Below the pieces are notes generated by a model. It was not told the DNA's origin. It searched no databases and saw only the letters and a program-made list of their open reading frames with translations. DNA of 37,300 nt from an uncultured Bacteroidales bacterium (lineage in GTDB: Bacteria; Bacteroidota; Bacteroidia; Bacteroidales; JAFGXI01), in assembly GCA_947311115.1 (NCBI GenBank), contig CAMZKE010000103.1, positions 1 to 37,300 of the forward strand, in the 5' to 3' direction. A program made the translations under genes and the position numbers. Position 1 is the stretch's first letter; each line of letters starts with the position of its first letter. This document shows, in pieces, positions 1-15,283 of the stretch.

Positions 1-3000
1 GTAAGTTCACAAAACGGATTATCAGCAGGAGCTGTAACAGTAACAATTACTGATGGAAATGGTTGCGTAATAGCAATACCTGGCGATACTACAATAACAA
101 TAATTGAACCTTCACCTATCACAATTACAATTGACGACCAAGTTGCACCAACATGTAACCAAGGCACAAACGGGTATATAAATATTACTGCTACCGGAGG
201 CACAGAAGCAGGTACTTATGATTACGCATGGGGGCAATCAAATGGCGGTTCAGGAATAGTTCCAACCGATGAAGACCAATCTGGTTTAACTGCGGGAGAT
301 TATACTGTTAGCGTTACTGATGATAACAATTGTACAGTTTCAACAACAATCAACTTAACTGACCCTAACGCAATATCATACTCCGAAACACATACCAACT
401 TAGCATGTAATGGAGATGCAAACGGAAGTATAACAATTACAATAACTCATTCCGATTGGCCTCCTGTAAATATTCATATTGACGGGCCTAATGGATATTC
501 TCACGACGAATCAACATCAACAAGTATTACAATTTCAAATTTAGAAGCAGGGCAATACGATATAACACTTACTGATAGCGGACCATGTACTACTACCGGT
601 AGTATTACGATTACAGAGCCTGCCCCAATAAATATTAACGGAACAGTTTCTGATTTAAATCAATGTTATGGTAGTTGTACAGCCGATATAACGCAAAACA
701 CAACTGGTGGTTACCCTCCATATACTTATACTTGGACAGGTGGTTTATCAGGTCAAAACCCTACCGATATTTGTGCAGGTACATATACTGTAACTGTTGA
801 TGATGGTAGCTGTACTAAAGACACAACTTATTATATAATTCAACCAGACTCAATATCTATTACAGAAACTCATGTAAACCCTCCTTGTAATGCAGACTTT
901 ACAGGAAGTATTGATATTACAGTTACCGGTGGTACTGAAGCTGGAACTTATGGTTATAGTTGGACAGGACCAAACGGTTACACATCAAACAACGAAGATA
1001 TAAATGGGTTAGAGGCTGGCAACTATACAGTTACAGTTACTGATGATAATAACTGTACAAACACTCTAACAATTATTTTAAACGATCCTGACGCTATACA
1101 TTTAAACACAACAATTACCGATGTTTCTTGTAATGGGTATAATGATGGGCAAGTAGTTTTAGATTTCACAGGAGGAACACCGTATTATGATTACGATTTA
1201 CTAAATCCTGATGCAACTCACACAATAGATTCAACATGGAACTCTGAAACCTTAACAGGATTATTAGCCGGTACTTATTCTATTACTATTACTGATCAAG
1301 GTCCTTGTACCGAAATTCAAAATTTCACAATAAACGAACCTGAACAAATTTATCTTAATGGTACTCAAACCCCTATAACTTGTTATAATGATTGTGATGC
1401 AATGATTATTCAAAATCCGCATGGTGGTAACGCACCTTACAATTACACTTATAGTTGGGATAACGGTTTAGCTTCAACACAAAATCAAGCTAATTTATGT
1501 GATGGTACATATAGCGTTACAATCAGTGATGGCACATGTACTAACGACACATCATACACTATAAACCAACCAGATAGTTTAGATGCACATTTTTACAATA
1601 TAACTCAAAATGTATGTGATGCAAGCTGTAATGGCTCAGCAACAATCTCTGTTACCGGTGGTACTACAACTTATTCTTATAATTGGAATCCAACTCCGGC
1701 TACTATTACTAACGATACAAGCTTAACTGATTTATGTCAAAATACTTATAATGTAACTGTTACCGATAATCATGGCTGTACCGATACATCATCATTAAAT
1801 ATAATAGAAATTATTCCTATTACAATTACAGAACAAAGCTTAACAGATTTAATTTGTAGAAATGTATGTACAGGCGATATTGATGTAAATATTACAGGAA
1901 ACAATCCTCCACTAACAATAAATTGGAGTAATGGCAATAATACTGACCATATATCAAGTTTATGTGCTGGTCAATATACAATATCGGTTACAGATATAAA
2001 TAACTGTTCAAAAGATACTACATTTACAATTACTCAACCTGACACAACTCAATACACATTTGAAATAGCTAATTTAACATGTAATGGCGATGGTGATGGG
2101 TCTGTAATCACTCATGTAACAGGCGGTACTCCTGCATATACATTTGATTATGGCACAGGATCAACAACCGACTCTGTTAACTCAGGTTTATCAGGTGGTA
2201 CATATCAAGTAACAATTTCAGATGCAAACGGATGCAGTAATCCTATCGGAAACTACACGATAATAGAACCTACAGAAATAACATCATCAATAAATATAGA
2301 CAATAATGTAAATTGTAATAGCAACTGTGACGGACAAGCTACAGTTACGGCAAACGGAGGAAGCGTTACTACTGATTATATTTATAATTGGAGCAACACA
2401 CAAACTGTTACTACAGCTACTAATTTATGTGCTCAACAATATTTTGTTACAATTACAGATGATAGTTTATGTACACATATTGATAGTGTTACAATAACAG
2501 AACCATTGCCTATAACTGCTACTTACGATACAACACATATTAGTTGTAGTGGGGCATGTACCGGACAAATTATTGCTCATATTTCAGGAGGAATAACTCC
2601 TTACACTTCAATAAATTGGTCGAATGGAAGTACAGATACAACATTAAACAACTTATGTGTGGGCGATTATATGCTAACTGTTGTTGATGCTAATAACTGT
2701 CAGTTTATTGATACAATAACAATAAGAGAAAACAACCCTATTATTGTTAGTTTCAGCAACATCTCTAATTTAACTTGTAATAATTCTAATGATGGTTCAG
2801 CTACAGCATCAGGTTCAGGAGGCTCAGGTAATTTTACTTATCAATGGAGTAATGGTGATGCAATAGCTACAGCAACAAATTTAACAGCAGGTTGGGCAGT
2901 TGTAACAGTTACCGATGATAGTGCTTGTTTTATTATCGATTCAGTTTTAATAACTCAACCTGACACAATAAATAATAATCTCGAAATTATAAATCCATTA

Positions 3001-5240
3001 TGTAATGGAGAAACTACCGGTATAATAACTTCTCATGTTACTGGAGGTACTCAACCTTATAGTTTTGATTGGGGAAGTGGTTCAACAATTAATGATTCTG
3101 TTTACTCAAATTTATCAGCAGGAACATATTATATTACAGTTACTGACTTTAACGGTTGTACAAAAATTGATACAGCTATTTTAATCGATTATCCAATACT
3201 AACAGCAAATATTACCGACTCAACATTGCTAAATTGCCATAACGAATGTATTGGCTCTGCAACAGTAACAGCTGGTGGTGGAACAGGAATTTACAATTAT
3301 AATTGGAGTAATTCAGAAACAACTCCTATAATAAATAACTTATGTACAGGAACATATATAATATCGGTAACCGATGAAAATAACTGTTTGGCTAAAGACA
3401 GTATTACCATTGTAAACCCTGATTCATTATATGTTACATCAACAAATATAACTTTACCATATTGCGGGCAAAATAATGGTTCTATTTCGGTAACAGGAAA
3501 CGGTGGTACATCAGGTTATACATATTTATGGGATGCAAATGGTAATAACGAAGCTGATTCTTCAATATCCGGTCTTGCAGTTAATACATATACTGTAACT
3601 GTAACCGATAACAATGGTTGTACCGTTGATTCAACATTTATATTGAACGACACTTCCGCTCTTACTTTAACTCTTGTTGATAGTATAACTACAACCTGTT
3701 CTTACACTTGCGATGGTGGATTAACCGTAGCCGGTGGTAATGGTATTTTACCTTACGACTACACTTGGGATACTACTCCATACATGGATTCTATTATAAC
3801 TAACTTATGTATTGGAAGTTATTTTGCCACAGTTACCGATGATGCAGGTTGTCAAGAAATTGGTCAATTTAATGTTATCGGACCAGATACTTTAATTGCA
3901 ACAGTCGATTCAATATACCCAATTGCTTGTAATGGCGATTGTAACGCAGAAATTGAAATTACTGTTTCTGGCGGAACACCTCAATACAATACATTGTGGT
4001 CTAATGGAAACACAACAACACATCCAACAAGCCTTTGTGCAGGAGCTTATACAGTAAGCATTTCTGATTCGCATGGATGTACAAACACTTTAGATGTAAA
4101 CATAATAGAACCTACAAGTTTAATTGCTTTTATAAACGACTCAACAAATGTACTTTGTTATGGCGATTTTACAGGAAGTGCTAATGTTCATGCAGAAGGC
4201 GGAACAATTCCATATAATTATATTTGGACAAACGGTTCAACCGACAGCACTGCAATAAATTTAGGTACAGGATTACAATATGTTACTATTACCGATTTAG
4301 GTGGCTGTTCCGTTATTGATAGTGTTACTATTACACAAGGCGATTCATTATATATGAGTGTAGGTATAACGCCTCCGGCTTGTAACCAAGCTAATGGAGA
4401 AATAGCAACTCAAGGTTTTGGGGGAACTCCCGGATTTAATTATCAATGGGGAGTAAATGCAGGAAACTCAACAGATTCTGTTATTACCGGATTAGTGGTT
4501 AATACATATTCAATAACTATTACCGATGCAGTTGGCTGTTCAATTGATAGCTCGATAGTACTTAACGACACATCAAATATTAATGTAATTGTTGTAGATA
4601 GCACTATGGCAAGTTGTTCATATAATTGCGATGGCGGTGTTACTATTGCCGCATCAAACGGAGTTTTACCATATACTTACGTATGGAATACAACTCCTAT
4701 TGATAACGATTCTACAATTACAGACCAATGCGTAGGCACATATCAGGTAACTGTAACCGATGCTCAACTATGTCAAGAAATTAGGCAAATTGATATTACA
4801 GGACCTGACTCATTTTTTGCCACAATAGATACTGTTATTGCTTCGCCATGTAGTGGCGATTGTGAAGCACAAATTATTACAACCGCTACCGGCGGAACTC
4901 CAAACTACAACTATTCGTGGAGTAATGGAGATACAACTGCAACAATTACAAGCCTTTGTGCAGGTAATTATCAATTAATACTTACCGATGCAAATAATTG
5001 TCAATTTGCCATTGATACTTTAATTCTTGCACCTAATCCTTTAGCTGTTTCGTTTACATATACAATTCCATTATGTAATATGGGTTCTGAAGATGGCGAT
5101 ATATATAGTCATGTAAGCGGTGGAACTCCCGGATATACATATTTATGGTCGAACGCAGCTACAACTCAAGACCTAAATTTAATCGATGGCGGTCAGTATA
5201 TATTAACAGTTACTGATACTGTTGGCTGTACTGTTTCTGA
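1..5240 (+). repeat. Tandem SprB-type protein repeats in two cysteine classes
   Basis: Twenty-three repeat ends of the form Y-x-V-T-V-T-D-x-x-x-C can be counted, from GAVTVTITDGNGC at the window start to GQYILTVTDTVGC near 5235. Eleven complete repeats carry four cysteines (C-x3-C at the front, one before the G-x-Y motif, one at the end). Eleven carry two (front and end only). No repeat is intermediate. The repeats are divergent at the DNA level and form an array of domains, not a microsatellite. Confidence 0.85.
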
Positions 5241-6030
5241 TACTGCATTTTTAGGGGCATCAATAACAATGGAGGCTTTTGCAGACTCTACTACAACTAT
5301 TTGTGGTGGTGATACTATTCAAATTTATGGAAACGGTATTTCATCTGACGGAGCAGGTTATACTTTTATTTGGACACCAAACGAATATTTAACCGACACA
5401 ACAATATCAAACCCATATGTTAGTGTTGAAGATAGCACTTGGTTCTATTTTGAAATAACTCACACAAACGGAGTTTGTAAAGCTGTTGATTCTGTATTAA
5501 TTGCAACTTATCCAAGTTATAATGTTGATGCAGGCGAAGACCAAATTATTCCATACGAACATTCTACAGAAATCACAGCAACAGGTGGTGGAGCTAATTC
5601 TGTATTTGAATGGAAGCCTATTGATTACTTAGAAAACCCTAACGATTCATCAACAGCAGTTGTAAGTATTATTGAAAATATGGTTTATTATATTATTGCA
5701 ACATCAGAATATGGTTGTGTAAGCACCGATTCGGTTAAAATAACAATATTGCCTGAACTTATTATACCTAATGGTATTACTCCTAATGGCGATGGAATAA
5801 ACGATACTTGGGAAATAGATTTAATTGAATTATATCCGAATGTTGAGGTCGAAGTATTTAACCGTTGGGGTGAAAAATTATTTTACTCAAAAGGATATCT
5901 ACCTTCTGAACGATGGGATGGAAATTACAAAGGAAGACCTTTACCTACCGGTACGTATTACTATATCATTAATTTAAATGATGAAGTACATAAAGAACCA
6001 TTTACAGGACCAATAACTTTAGTAAGATAA
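1..6030 (+). CDS. SprB-like cell-surface repeat adhesin with T9SS C-terminal domain (5' partial)
   Basis: The frame is open from base 1, so the gene starts before the window; the Met codon at 1402 lies inside a repeat and is not the start. The visible part is 2009 residues. It holds 22 complete and one partial SprB-type repeats of about 75-85 residues. Each has a GGTPxYxYxW-like core and ends in a G-x-Y-x-V-T-V-T-D-x-x-x-C motif. Two Ig/PKD-like segments follow, and the last 90 or so residues form a CHU_C/gliding-motility C-terminal domain (ITPNGDGIND, FNRWGEKLF, WDGNYKGRPLPTGTYYY). This domain is a signal for export by the type IX system. In Flavobacterium johnsoniae SprB is the mobile gliding adhesin; the role here is inferred from that family. 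The gene lies 11 bp before a SprF-type gene, as sprB does. Whether this species glides cannot be told from sequence. Confidence 0.9.
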   Translation, partial: VSSQNGLSAGAVTVTITDGNGCVIAIPGDTTITIIEPSPITITIDDQVAPTCNQGTNGYINITATGGTEAGTYDYAWGQSNGGSGIVPTDEDQSGLTAGDYTVSVTDDNNCTVSTTINLTDPNAISYSETHTNLACNGDANGSITITITHSDWPPVNIHIDGPNGYSHDESTSTSITISNLEAGQYDITLTDSGPCTTTGSITITEPAPININGTVSDLNQCYGSCTADITQNTTGGYPPYTYTWTGGLSGQNPTDICAGTYTVTVDDGSCTKDTTYYIIQPDSISITETHVNPPCNADFTGSIDITVTGGTEAGTYGYSWTGPNGYTSNNEDINGLEAGNYTVTVTDDNNCTNTLTIILNDPDAIHLNTTITDVSCNGYNDGQVVLDFTGGTPYYDYDLLNPDATHTIDSTWNSETLTGLLAGTYSITITDQGPCTEIQNFTINEPEQIYLNGTQTPITCYNDCDAMIIQNPHGGNAPYNYTYSWDNGLASTQNQANLCDGTYSVTISDGTCTNDTSYTINQPDSLDAHFYNITQNVCDASCNGSATISVTGGTTTYSYNWNPTPATITNDTSLTDLCQNTYNVTVTDNHGCTDTSSLNIIEIIPITITEQSLTDLICRNVCTGDIDVNITGNNPPLTINWSNGNNTDHISSLCAGQYTISVTDINNCSKDTTFTITQPDTTQYTFEIANLTCNGDGDGSVITHVTGGTPAYTFDYGTGSTTDSVNSGLSGGTYQVTISDANGCSNPIGNYTIIEPTEITSSINIDNNVNCNSNCDGQATVTANGGSVTTDYIYNWSNTQTVTTATNLCAQQYFVTITDDSLCTHIDSVTITEPLPITATYDTTHISCSGACTGQIIAHISGGITPYTSINWSNGSTDTTLNNLCVGDYMLTVVDANNCQFIDTITIRENNPIIVSFSNISNLTCNNSNDGSATASGSGGSGNFTYQWSNGDAIATATNLTAGWAVVTVTDDSACFIIDSVLITQPDTINNNLEIINPLCNGETTGIITSHVTGGTQPYSFDWGSGSTINDSVYSNLSAGTYYITVTDFNGCTKIDTAILIDYPILTANITDSTLLNCHNECIGSATVTAGGGTGIYNYNWSNSETTPIINNLCTGTYIISVTDENNCLAKDSITIVNPDSLYVTSTNITLPYCGQNNGSISVTGNGGTSGYTYLWDANGNNEADSSISGLAVNTYTVTVTDNNGCTVDSTFILNDTSALTLTLVDSITTTCSYTCDGGLTVAGGNGILPYDYTWDTTPYMDSIITNLCIGSYFATVTDDAGCQEIGQFNVIGPDTLIATVDSIYPIACNGDCNAEIEITVSGGTPQYNTLWSNGNTTTHPTSLCAGAYTVSISDSHGCTNTLDVNIIEPTSLIAFINDSTNVLCYGDFTGSANVHAEGGTIPYNYIWTNGSTDSTAINLGTGLQYVTITDLGGCSVIDSVTITQGDSLYMSVGITPPACNQANGEIATQGFGGTPGFNYQWGVNAGNSTDSVITGLVVNTYSITITDAVGCSIDSSIVLNDTSNINVIVVDSTMASCSYNCDGGVTIAASNGVLPYTYVWNTTPIDNDSTITDQCVGTYQVTVTDAQLCQEIRQIDITGPDSFFATIDTVIASPCSGDCEAQIITTATGGTPNYNYSWSNGDTTATITSLCAGNYQLILTDANNCQFAIDTLILAPNPLAVSFTYTIPLCNMGSEDGDIYSHVSGGTPGYTYLWSNAATTQDLNLIDGGQYILTVTDTVGCTVSDTAFLGASITMEAFADSTTTICGGDTIQIYGNGISSDGAGYTFIWTPNEYLTDTTISNPYVSVEDSTWFYFEITHTNGVCKAVDSVLIATYPSYNVDAGEDQIIPYEHSTEITATGGGANSVFEWKPIDYLENPNDSSTAVVSIIENMVYYIIATSEYGCVSTDSVKITILPELIIPNGITPNGDGINDTWEIDLIELYPNVEVEVFNRWGEKLFYSKGYLPSERWDGNYKGRPLPTGTYYYIINLNDEVHKEPFTGPITLVR

Positions 6031-6041
6031 TTAATTGAGTT

Positions 6042-6986
6042 ATGGAAATAAAATTAGAAAAAGTGAAAAACGGGAAAAAGAATATATTATTAATAATTGT
6101 AAGCTTATTTGCTCTTGTAAGTTTTGCACAACAAGAACAGCATTATACACAATTTCAATTTAATAAATATATGTATAATCCTGCTATTGCAGGAACTAAG
6201 CCTTATTTTATGGCAAAAACAAATTTTAGGTTTCAATGGCTTAAAATTGTTGATTCGCCACGAACATACACACTAAGTGTTTATGGCCCAAGCAGGACAA
6301 AGCCAATGGGATTTGGCGGATATATTTATAGCGATGTTACCGGTCCTACAAGTAAAATTAGTTTCAGATTATCTTATGCTTATAATCTTAAAGTTAACGA
6401 TGTTGCACGACTTTCAATGGGGCTTTCTCTTGGAGGAATGCAATATAAAATTGATGGTTCAAAAATTTTACTTCACGATGATTATGACCCTTCGTTAGGA
6501 AATGCAATTTACACAACATTTGTTCCTGATGCTAGTTTTGGTGCTTTTTATTATCATGAAAAATACAATTTTGGTATTTCTATAAATCAATTATTTGCAA
6601 GTAGAATTAACTATAAAGAGCTAAGCGAACTAAACGAAACTCGATTACGCCCACATATATATGCACATGGCGAATACACGTTTAAAATTGATGATGATTG
6701 GGATGTACAACCAGCAATGCTTATTAAATATGTTTGGCCTGCCCCTCCTCAAATGGATTTAAGTGTTAGAGGCGTTTGGAAAAAGCTAGTTTGGCTTGGT
6801 GTTTCGTGGCGTACTATGGACGCTATAGGTATATTTGCAGGATATAATTATCAAGAACAACTTTATTTTGGATATTCTTACGATTTTACTACTACAAATA
6901 TTTACAAATATTCATCAGGTACTCATGAGCTAATGATTACTTTCCGATTTAATAAAATTAAAAAGATTGGATTTAGTAAACTATAA
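6042..6986 (+). CDS. PorP/SprF family type IX secretion outer-membrane protein
   Basis: 314 residues. A signal peptide (basic start, hydrophobic stretch about 15-27) ends in SFA before Q30, so the mature protein would begin with Gln. The mature start (HYTQFQFNKYMYNPAIAGT) is the hallmark of the PorP/SprF family, and the rest reads as an outer-membrane beta-barrel with aromatic-rich strands. Family members attach to the periplasmic face of the gliding or secretion machinery, and SprF is needed for export of SprB. Placement 11 bp after the SprB-like gene suggests that it is the dedicated partner of that protein and shares its transcript. A strong terminator follows. The start chosen is the first ATG after the upstream stop; its long basic N-region is a little unusual but fits a signal peptide. 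Confidence 0.88.
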   Translation: MEIKLEKVKNGKKNILLIIVSLFALVSFAQQEQHYTQFQFNKYMYNPAIAGTKPYFMAKTNFRFQWLKIVDSPRTYTLSVYGPSRTKPMGFGGYIYSDVTGPTSKISFRLSYAYNLKVNDVARLSMGLSLGGMQYKIDGSKILLHDDYDPSLGNAIYTTFVPDASFGAFYYHEKYNFGISINQLFASRINYKELSELNETRLRPHIYAHGEYTFKIDDDWDVQPAMLIKYVWPAPPQMDLSVRGVWKKLVWLGVSWRTMDAIGIFAGYNYQEQLYFGYSYDFTTTNIYKYSSGTHELMITFRFNKIKKIGFSKL

Positions 6987-10801: not shown

Positions 10802-10833
10802 AAAAAAAGCCCGAACTTTACTGCTCGGGCTTT
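10802..10833 (-). terminator. Rho-independent terminator in the cysK leader (attenuator)
   Basis: On the minus strand AAAGCCCGA (10833-10825), a 10-nt loop and TCGGGCTTT (10814-10806) form a 9-bp stem followed by four more T residues to 10802. It lies 22 nt after the stop of the Cys-rich leader ORF and 30 nt before the cysK ATG. A terminator between promoter and structural gene is the mark of attenuation. It could instead simply end transcription from the upstream ctpA gene; both could be true. Confidence 0.85.
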
Positions 10834-10855
10834 ATATTATATTTATTAATATACT

Positions 10856-10918
10856 TTATCGGCAGCAGACTTTAATTCTACTACAACAACAAGTATTATT
10901 TAATTTATTTATTTTCAT
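10856..10918 (-). CDS. Cys-rich leader peptide of the cysK-cysE operon
   Basis: A 20-codon ORF reading MKINKLNNTCCCSRIKVCCR then TAA. Five of twenty codons are Cys: TGT TGT TGT at 10891-10883 and TGC TGC at 10867-10862. Cys is rare in bacterial proteins, so this clustering just ahead of a terminator and the cysteine-synthesis genes is hard to explain by chance. The likely role is sensing: when charged tRNA-Cys is scarce, a ribosome would stall on the Cys codons and change the folding of the mRNA so that the downstream terminator does not form. The ATG sits 5 nt after a TATATTTG element, so the transcript would be leaderless or nearly so. The peptide is too short for gene finders and is not expected to act as a protein. 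Confidence 0.8.
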   Translation of the reverse strand: MKINKLNNTCCCSRIKVCCR

Positions 10919-10923
10919 TGATG

Positions 10924-10931
10924 CAAATATA
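10924..10931 (-). promoter_or_regulatory. Candidate -7 element of the cysK leader promoter
   Basis: TATATTTG on the minus strand matches the Bacteroidetes -7 consensus TAnnTTTG. It lies in the 18 bp between the ctpA stop and the leader ATG. I see no clear -33 TTG at the usual 19-23 nt spacing, so the promoter is supported by one element only. Confidence 0.45.
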
Positions 10932-12538: not shown

Positions 12539-13615
12539 TTAATTTATGTAAAGACCTTCTATATCAAGCTCTCTGTTATTTGAATAGAAGTTACTTGTTT
12601 CTGTATATTTTTTAAATTTTAAATTTTCCACTTCACTTCCTGTTGATAAATAATTTAATGAAGATAAATCTAATTTTTTACGGGGTGAGAATGTTGATGT
12701 TCTACTGGAAAACAAGCCCCATCCATTAACAATATTAGTAAAAGCCGGTTTTTCTTGCACAATACCATAAGTAGGTTTTGTTAAATCAATATACATAGAT
12801 AAATCTTCTCCTGCCGATAAAAATTTATATCTTAGCGAATAAAAAATTCTATCTTCATTAGAAGGAGTTAGCTCTTCTGCTATAAAATTATAAAAAGTAT
12901 ATCCATTTAGCGTGAAGGCAAATGTTTGTCCTCCATCTAAACTTGTTGCATTTTTAGTTCCTTCGCTATGTGTTATTGTTTTTAGTTTATACTCTCCGTT
13001 TTCTTTTTCATAATAATCAACAACCAAAAAATACTCGAAATATTTAGCATTTATACCTGATTTAAAGCTATATTCAGGCGATAAATAATCGTTAGTATAT
13101 AGAGCTATTTCATTTTTCTGATATGGACTGTTATATCCTAATGGAGGTAGTACAGTAACATCAGAAACCAACTTTGTTTCTGAACTTAGCTTATCTACAC
13201 CAGAAATACTAATATCTAAAACAAATTTATAATCTGCAGAATTTTCTCCATCGGCTATTATACTGCCTTTATATATGTAAATAATATTATTATCGCTTGC
13301 AAAATATCCGGTATCCTTTATTATTGTATCTGTTTTAACAAATTCGTAAGTAGCAACAATATTATTATTTTTATATTTTACTATATGTACAATGGCATCA
13401 TCATAATATAATGAATCAGATACTTGAGCCATTTCGCTTACGCTTGTCTCACCTAAAAAAGCTTTATTAAGTTTAATATATTGAATTGTGTCATTTTTAT
13501 CTAAAAGAGAAAAAACAACAGGTATATTTTTATAATCTGCATTAACATTTAAGCTAGTATCACATGATATTAGAATAAAATTAACCAGTATTATATATAG
13601 TATATATCGTTTCAT
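12539..13615 (-). CDS. Uncharacterised Bacteroidetes lipoprotein
   Basis: 358 residues with a lipoprotein signal peptide (hydrophobic 4-16, lipobox LIS-C18). The mature part is beta-rich, opening with a short Ig-like segment (PVVFSLLDKNDTIQYIKLNKAFLG) and ending with FTNIVNGWGLFSSR. The general shape and the ending resemble DUF4249-type lipoproteins, but I cannot confirm this. Anchored on the periplasmic or outer side of a membrane. It heads an operon with the S41 protease, with 12 bp between them, which hints at related envelope work. The start is the only Met that gives a proper signal peptide, and a two-element promoter match lies about 65-96 bp upstream. Confidence 0.75.
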   Translation of the reverse strand: MKRYILYIILVNFILISCDTSLNVNADYKNIPVVFSLLDKNDTIQYIKLNKAFLGETSVSEMAQVSDSLYYDDAIVHIVKYKNNNIVATYEFVKTDTIIKDTGYFASDNNIIYIYKGSIIADGENSADYKFVLDISISGVDKLSSETKLVSDVTVLPPLGYNSPYQKNEIALYTNDYLSPEYSFKSGINAKYFEYFLVVDYYEKENGEYKLKTITHSEGTKNATSLDGGQTFAFTLNGYTFYNFIAEELTPSNEDRIFYSLRYKFLSAGEDLSMYIDLTKPTYGIVQEKPAFTNIVNGWGLFSSRTSTFSPRKKLDLSSLNYLSTGSEVENLKFKKYTETSNFYSNNRELDIEGLYIN

Positions 13616-14557: not shown

Positions 14558-15283
14558 ATGGAAAATTTAACCCCTAACAATTACCGAATTTTATTAGTTG
14601 ATGATGACAACGATATTTTAGAGTTTTTATCGTATAATTTAAAAAAAGAAGGGTTTAACGTATTTACAGCATTAAATGGAAATGTTGCTATAGAAGAAGT
14701 TAAAAAAAACAAACCTCATTTAATTATTTTAGACATTATGATGCCCGAAAAAGATGGCATTGAAACATGTGAAACAATAAGGAACACTGACAATATTAAT
14801 AATCCTATAATAGTATTACTAACTGCTCGCGGCGAAGATTATTCGCAAATAGCAGGTTTTAACGCCGGAGCTGATGACTATATAACAAAACCTATAAAAC
14901 CAAAAGTTTTAATTAGTAGGATTTACGCATTATTGCGTAGAATAAATACCCAAACAAACAGTATAGACAAAAATATAAACATACTAAAATATAATAATTT
15001 AGAAATAAATAAGGAGAAATATATTGTTATTGTTAATGATGAAGAATTAATACTTCCAAGAAAAGAATTTGAACTCATTTTATTGTTAGCTTCAAAACCG
15101 GACAATGTTTTTACACGTGACGAAATATATGATAAAATTTGGGGTAATTCCGTTGTTGTTGGAGACAGAACTATAGATGTACATATTAGAAAATTACGTG
15201 AAAAAATTGGTGATAATTATATTAAAACTATAAAAGGGGTAGGGTATAAATTTACTGACAGTATTAACCCGCATTATTCATAG
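14558..15283 (+). CDS. OmpR/PhoB-family response regulator, orphan
   Basis: 241 residues. The receiver domain (about 10-125) has the acidic cluster D15-D17, the phospho-acceptor D59 in LIILDIMMPEKDG, the switch T89 in LLTARGED, and K111 in YITKPIKP. A winged-helix DNA-binding domain (about 140-235) shows LPRKEFELILLLASKPDNVFTRDEIYDKIWG, DRTIDVHIRKLREKIG and IKTIKGVGYKF, the OmpR/PhoB pattern. All key residues are present, so it should be a phosphorylation-controlled transcription factor. No histidine kinase gene lies in the window, whereas Bacteroidetes PhoB-like regulators are often paired with one. The convergent ruvB stop is 9 bp away, leaving no room for a dedicated terminator. Confidence 0.93.
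   Translation: MENLTPNNYRILLVDDDNDILEFLSYNLKKEGFNVFTALNGNVAIEEVKKNKPHLIILDIMMPEKDGIETCETIRNTDNINNPIIVLLTARGEDYSQIAGFNAGADDYITKPIKPKVLISRIYALLRRINTQTNSIDKNINILKYNNLEINKEKYIVIVNDEELILPRKEFELILLLASKPDNVFTRDEIYDKIWGNSVVVGDRTIDVHIRKLREKIGDNYIKTIKGVGYKFTDSINPHYS

Follow-up and report, generated by a model that had tools for sequence, protein, structure and literature searches.

The minus strand of a 37,300-nt stretch of contig CAMZKE010000103.1 from an uncultured Bacteroidales bacterium (hereafter the window) encodes cysK, the gene for cysteine synthase A (10772-9843; TIGR01139, 444 bits, above the cut-off). It is followed after 2 nt by a cysE-like serine O-acetyltransferase gene (9840-8932) with hexapeptide repeats, for which TIGR01172 was still the best match despite a score (159 bits) below the cut-off of 210.65. 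Upstream of cysK lies ctpA, whose stop codon (10939-10937) is directly 5' of a -7 element, TATATTTG (10931-10924), that matches the Bacteroidetes motif TAnnTTTG. The ATG of a 20-codon leader ORF, MKINKLNNTCCCSRIKVCCR (10918-10856; ATG at 10918, TAA at 10858-10856), begins 5 nt further on. This ORF, recognized from its reading frame and from its counterparts in relatives, contains a run of 3 Cys codons (TGT TGT TGT, 10891-10883) and a second Cys-Cys pair (10867-10862). An intrinsic terminator, AAAGCCCGAGC-AGTAAA-GTTCGGGCTTT (10833-10806), with a run of 7 T residues (10808-10802), is located ~100 nt past the ctpA stop and ~30 nt 5' of the cysK start, and does not overlap the start codon. A preliminary description of this DNA had named a -7 element, a 20-codon ORF with Cys-Cys-Cys and Cys-Cys, a terminator and cysK, in that order on the minus strand, and every one of these parts was found. 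The terminator and its T-run were likewise present, but the stem, given as 9 bp in that description, folds as 11 pairs with a 6-nt loop (-17.9 kcal/mol). Elsewhere in the window, a 358-aa ORF upstream of ctpA (12539-13615, minus strand) gave no Pfam match, and the plus strand (1402-6986) encodes an SprB-repeat protein carrying a C-terminal signal for the T9SS and, after it, a PorP/SprF protein, which together represent a gliding or secretion pair. The T9SS-type genes, along with the kind of promoter, agree with the placement of the order in Bacteroidota.

We compared upstream regions of cysK or cysE in 166 genomes of the order, and identified the leader in 25 of them, spanning 18 families: the window genome, the same-genus genome G001 and 23 others. 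The preliminary description had named the absence of such conservation as grounds for abandoning the attenuator; instead, Cys runs, terminator and covarying antiterminator (see below) were retained in all 25. The leader precedes cysK in 5 genomes and cysE in 20, the latter being those in which cysE comes first or stands alone, and 15 of the 25 were obtained from a search with a second type of cysE. The layout recurs before cysE in genomes whose upstream genes are other than that of the window, and each of the 25 leaders is followed by a hairpin with a T run (-11.8 to -27.9 kcal/mol). In G001, the one further member of the genus that was compared (cysK 73% identical), MKNKIQNIYCCCSN precedes cysK, with TATCTTTG 6 nt before the ATG and the terminator CCTGAGCAGTACTGTTCAGG followed by 9 T residues. 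The remaining cysK leaders are MITKLIYSACCCTTL (G170), MMLNYLTYKICCCCENIKFLHR (G151) and MKISAYISINCCWCCENTSKCKQFVNM (G133). A short ORF with Cys-Cys was absent from 20 further upstream regions, indicating that the background is low. Relatives G004, G038 and G313 lacked the element at cysK/cysE, and none of the 80 loci that were added through cysK (from Prevotella, Clostridia and others) had a leader with a terminator. The family provides a clean case of rapid turnover, in which layout, codon identity and pairing are retained and nearly all of the sequence is replaced. Outside the order, a class-wide cysE search returned 2 weaker candidates close to cysE genes that belong to different orders of that class (L348 1369-1417 in G661 and L367 1139-1205 in G632), each with a Cys leader, a terminator and an antiterminator (p = 0.04 and 0.01, respectively).

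Cys runs in the 25 leaders take the forms CCC, CCCC, CCCCC, CCWCC, CCICC, CCACC and similar, at differing positions. TGT and TGC are mixed both within and between leaders, and the remainder of the peptide is variable; this combination indicates that selection acts on the encoded amino acid, cysteine. Of the short ORFs in the loci examined, 38 had a Cys run, and a terminator lay behind 23 of these (61%), compared to 20 of 762 ORFs with runs of the other 19 residues (2.6%; Fisher p = 6e-23), a difference that demonstrates residue specificity rather than a genome-wide rate, since the control DNA was by design enriched for cys operons. On the basis of this control, a chance Cys ORF was rejected. 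In 4 of the leader peptides (L302, L331, L337 and L342), a P-Q-G, P-H-G-G or P-T-G-G motif comes after the Cys run. The reason is apparently that the leader frame continues through the antiterminator strand (CAAGGG, GGAGGG), so that the likeness of these peptides appears to be an RNA constraint showing through.

Folding of the leader RNA yielded both of the forms expected of an attenuator, terminator and antiterminator. The preliminary description had placed CTGCT at 10868-10864 and AGCAG at 10825-10821, exactly where they occur, and had regarded their 5-bp pairing as the weakest part of the model. The antiterminator is in fact more extensive: region 2, UGCUGCCG (10867-10860), pairs as UGCUGC-CG with CG-A-GCAGUA in region 3, the 5' arm of the terminator (10827-10819), to give 8 pairs with one bulge, enclosing a nested A+T hairpin (10853-10833). 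An equivalent hairpin is present in G001, where CUGCU is kept and the antiterminator has 7 bp (UACUGCU/AGCAGUA). When a ribosome was placed in silico at the first or the third codon of the Cys triplet, the 2:3 pairing formed (-11.7 kcal/mol), consistent with the earlier proposal that stalling on this triplet would free CTGCT. With a ribosome at the stop codon, the terminator alone was predicted. When no ribosome was included, the fold preceding synthesis of the 3' arm of the terminator was a 1:2 hairpin (-15.3 kcal/mol), after which the terminator formed. The full 1:2 hairpin spans 10904-10845, with a core at 10884-10858 (GUAGUAG.. with ..CUGCUGC); of the 2 loci folded, it was strong in the window, but in G001 it was weaker and took another form. 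When the RNA was folded at full length, the terminator was more stable than the antiterminator in every case; like that of other attenuators, the switch must therefore be a kinetic one.

Pairing between regions 2 and 3 varies in sequence but is constant in place, as illustrated by CUGUCCGG with CCGGACAG (G170), UUGCAUCG with CGGUGCAA (G151) and GAAGGGU with ACCCUUC (G246). For the first 10 loci, duplexes between each leader and its own terminator arm were compared to those of dinucleotide shuffles of the leader, giving a combined Fisher p of 2.5e-9. Swapping terminator arms between loci failed to reach the true pairing in any of 100,000 trials, for the 10 loci as well as for the 9 without the sister genome, and the same was true of 200,000 permutations over all 25 loci (z = -8.2). 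Ranks of individual loci differ because many cysE terminators have a CCCTTCC-like arm in common, and the G133 antiterminator was weak (p = 0.17 versus shuffles). Pairing sets in 17-39 nt past the first Cys codon in the 25 leaders, a spacing that fits a stalled ribosome.

We also considered the second Cys-Cys pair as the sensor. The G001 leader ORF stops before this pair, yet CUGCU is kept beyond its stop codon, and a ribosome on the pair in the window would cover region 2, thereby favoring termination. The second pair was rejected as the sensor on these grounds; together they indicate that the triplet, whose Cys run is kept across the 25 leaders, is the sensor, and that the second pair is part of the antiterminator strand. 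The preliminary description is accordingly refined on 2 points: its second Cys-Cys arises incidentally from the sequence of the antiterminator strand, and the antiterminator can no longer be called the weak element of the model.

Given the conserved parts, the covariation of regions 2 and 3 and the specificity for cysteine, the earlier reading of the locus was upheld, and we consider it very probable that this leader controls the cysK-cysE operon as a cysteine-sensing, ribosome-mediated transcription attenuator that acts via the supply of Cys-tRNA. In the mechanism that these sequences suggest, the transcript would begin at the leader ATG or shortly before it, and a ribosome trailing RNA polymerase would translate the leader. 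If Cys-tRNA were plentiful, the ribosome would pass the Cys triplet, reach the stop codon and cover region 2, leaving region 3 free to form the terminator, and the transcript would end near 10802. If Cys-tRNA were scarce, the ribosome would instead stall at TGT TGT TGT, hiding region 1 and leaving region 2 open; the 2:3 pairing would then form before the 3' arm of the terminator was made, and polymerase would continue into cysK-cysE. In the event of zero translation, the 1:2 hairpin is predicted to form and the terminator to prevail.

Two other accounts of the leader and its hairpin were weighed against this one. In mycobacteria, polycysteine leader ORFs near the 5' end of the RNA reportedly exert their effect on translation (Canestrari 2020, as described in PMC13236596), and a similar translational attenuator here would control access to the cysK start, with the hairpin as a side feature. 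We find this highly improbable, as the T-tailed hairpin trails all 25 leaders, lies clear of the start codon in the window, and has a 5' arm with which the leader pairs; the actinobacterial leaders, by comparison, are without terminators (PMC1262725). That the hairpin is simply the terminator of ctpA, accompanied by a Cys-rich ORF that arose by chance, would agree with its distance from the ctpA stop and with the many short ORFs of A+T-rich DNA. It would leave unexplained why the layout is repeated before cysE where the upstream genes differ, why Cys runs are the ones enriched and why the covariation between terminator and leader is strong, and we judge this account to be barely credible.

A third possibility concerns only the signal. 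Cys-tRNA could also run short when cysteine or CysS is attacked, for example by oxidants or metals, and the attenuator would then respond to a trigger other than cysteine supply; the mechanism would be identical, and sequence cannot tell the 2 triggers apart. End-product control would suit the downstream genes, which encode the last 2 steps of cysteine synthesis, and a different trigger therefore strikes us as very unlikely.

The promoter spacing bears on where the transcript might begin. TAnnTTTG, the -7 consensus of Bacteroidetes according to PMC7366714, is found in the 60 nt that precede the ATG in 12 of the 25 leaders; its distance to the ATG is 4-7 nt in 8 of these 12, the window among them, and 18-22 nt in the other 4. 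A -33 TTTG box was not evident at the window locus. If the spacing between the -7 box and the start is the usual one, then these 8 leaders would be nearly leaderless. In B. thetaiotaomicron, only ~3.7% of 5' UTRs are shorter than 10 nt (PMC7366714). We tentatively suggest, as a possibility somewhat less probable than its converse, that the leaders represent a widespread Bacteroidota attenuator family in which the leader ORF begins a few nt from the RNA 5' end and coupled translation takes place on (near-)leaderless RNA. If so, Bacteroidota ribosomes would trail RNA polymerase closely enough to control termination. The 25 leaders make it testable whether transcription-translation coupling in this phylum lets ribosome stalling control termination.

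A search of the window genome and the sister genome with the pattern promoter-ATG-TGYTGYTGY returned mostly out-of-frame matches, and 2 further matches were set aside because they look like parts of coding sequences. One in-frame match, on contig 2 of the window genome, G000 (~14696-14780; L114 1500-1600), has a second TATCTTTG followed by an ATG, an MSFNCCC ORF and a T-tailed hairpin. Its own strand is gene-free for 1.5 kb, and a gene for a Cys/Met-metabolism PLP lyase-like protein lies nearby on the opposite strand; the ORF could belong to a small RNA or be a relic.

Cysteine regulation in Bacteroidota has been little described so far. Ribosome-mediated attenuation is a known mechanism, and its use for cysteine biosynthesis is new as far as can be searched: the searchable literature, which leaves out most subscription papers and so makes absence a weak argument, held no report, for any phylum, of a terminator-type Cys attenuator that acts on biosynthetic genes. 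A cysteine attenuator is probably also new for the phylum Bacteroidota, for which the same literature held no report of a Cys leader, an absence that is again weak given that subscription surveys fall outside it. Leader-peptide candidates in Flavobacterium psychrophilum (PMC9723704) and sORFs in long 5' UTRs of B. thetaiotaomicron (PMC7366714), as presented in passages of these 2 papers, suggest that leader-peptide attenuation exists in Bacteroidetes; those passages do not name a cysteine leader. With respect to RNA families, riboswitches and T-boxes gave no Rfam match at the gathering threshold, and the Trp, His, Thr and Leu leader families (RF00513, RF00514, RF00506 and RF00512, respectively) gave only sub-threshold scores (21-26 bits versus thresholds of 41-55).

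Among known systems, the closest is uORFC-8-2 of Rhodobacterales, a predicted Cys attenuator that acts on cysS (PMC8632094); it resembles the Bacteroidales leaders in having a short ORF with tandem Cys codons, an intrinsic terminator and predicted ribosome-mediated attenuation. It differs in that it regulates a cysteinyl-tRNA synthetase gene, belongs to Alphaproteobacteria, and has 2 Cys codons and one alignable motif. The Bacteroidales leaders precede cysK/cysE rather than cysS, and their Cys positions vary, as opposed to codons ~14-15 in uORFC-8-2; they therefore stand outside that family, and among themselves they have the layout in common but little sequence. Leaders with Cys runs and without terminators are predicted for cys operons of Actinobacteria (PMC1262725), and like ours they are ORFs ahead of cysteine-synthesis genes. 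The mycobacterial representatives, for which the account in PMC13236596 gives translational attenuation, are leaderless, as some of the Bacteroidales leaders may nearly be, judging from promoter spacing; with terminators in 25 of 25 cases, the latter do not conform to a terminator-less translational attenuator. A further parallel is with the trp, his, thr and leu attenuators of enterobacteria, which likewise combine alternative 1:2, 2:3 and 3:4 hairpins with repeated codons for the end product, and which differ in amino acid, organisms and promoter type. Among the features that define an attenuator, an end-product codon run, a terminator between the leader and the first gene, and a covarying antiterminator are present in the 25 Bacteroidales genomes.
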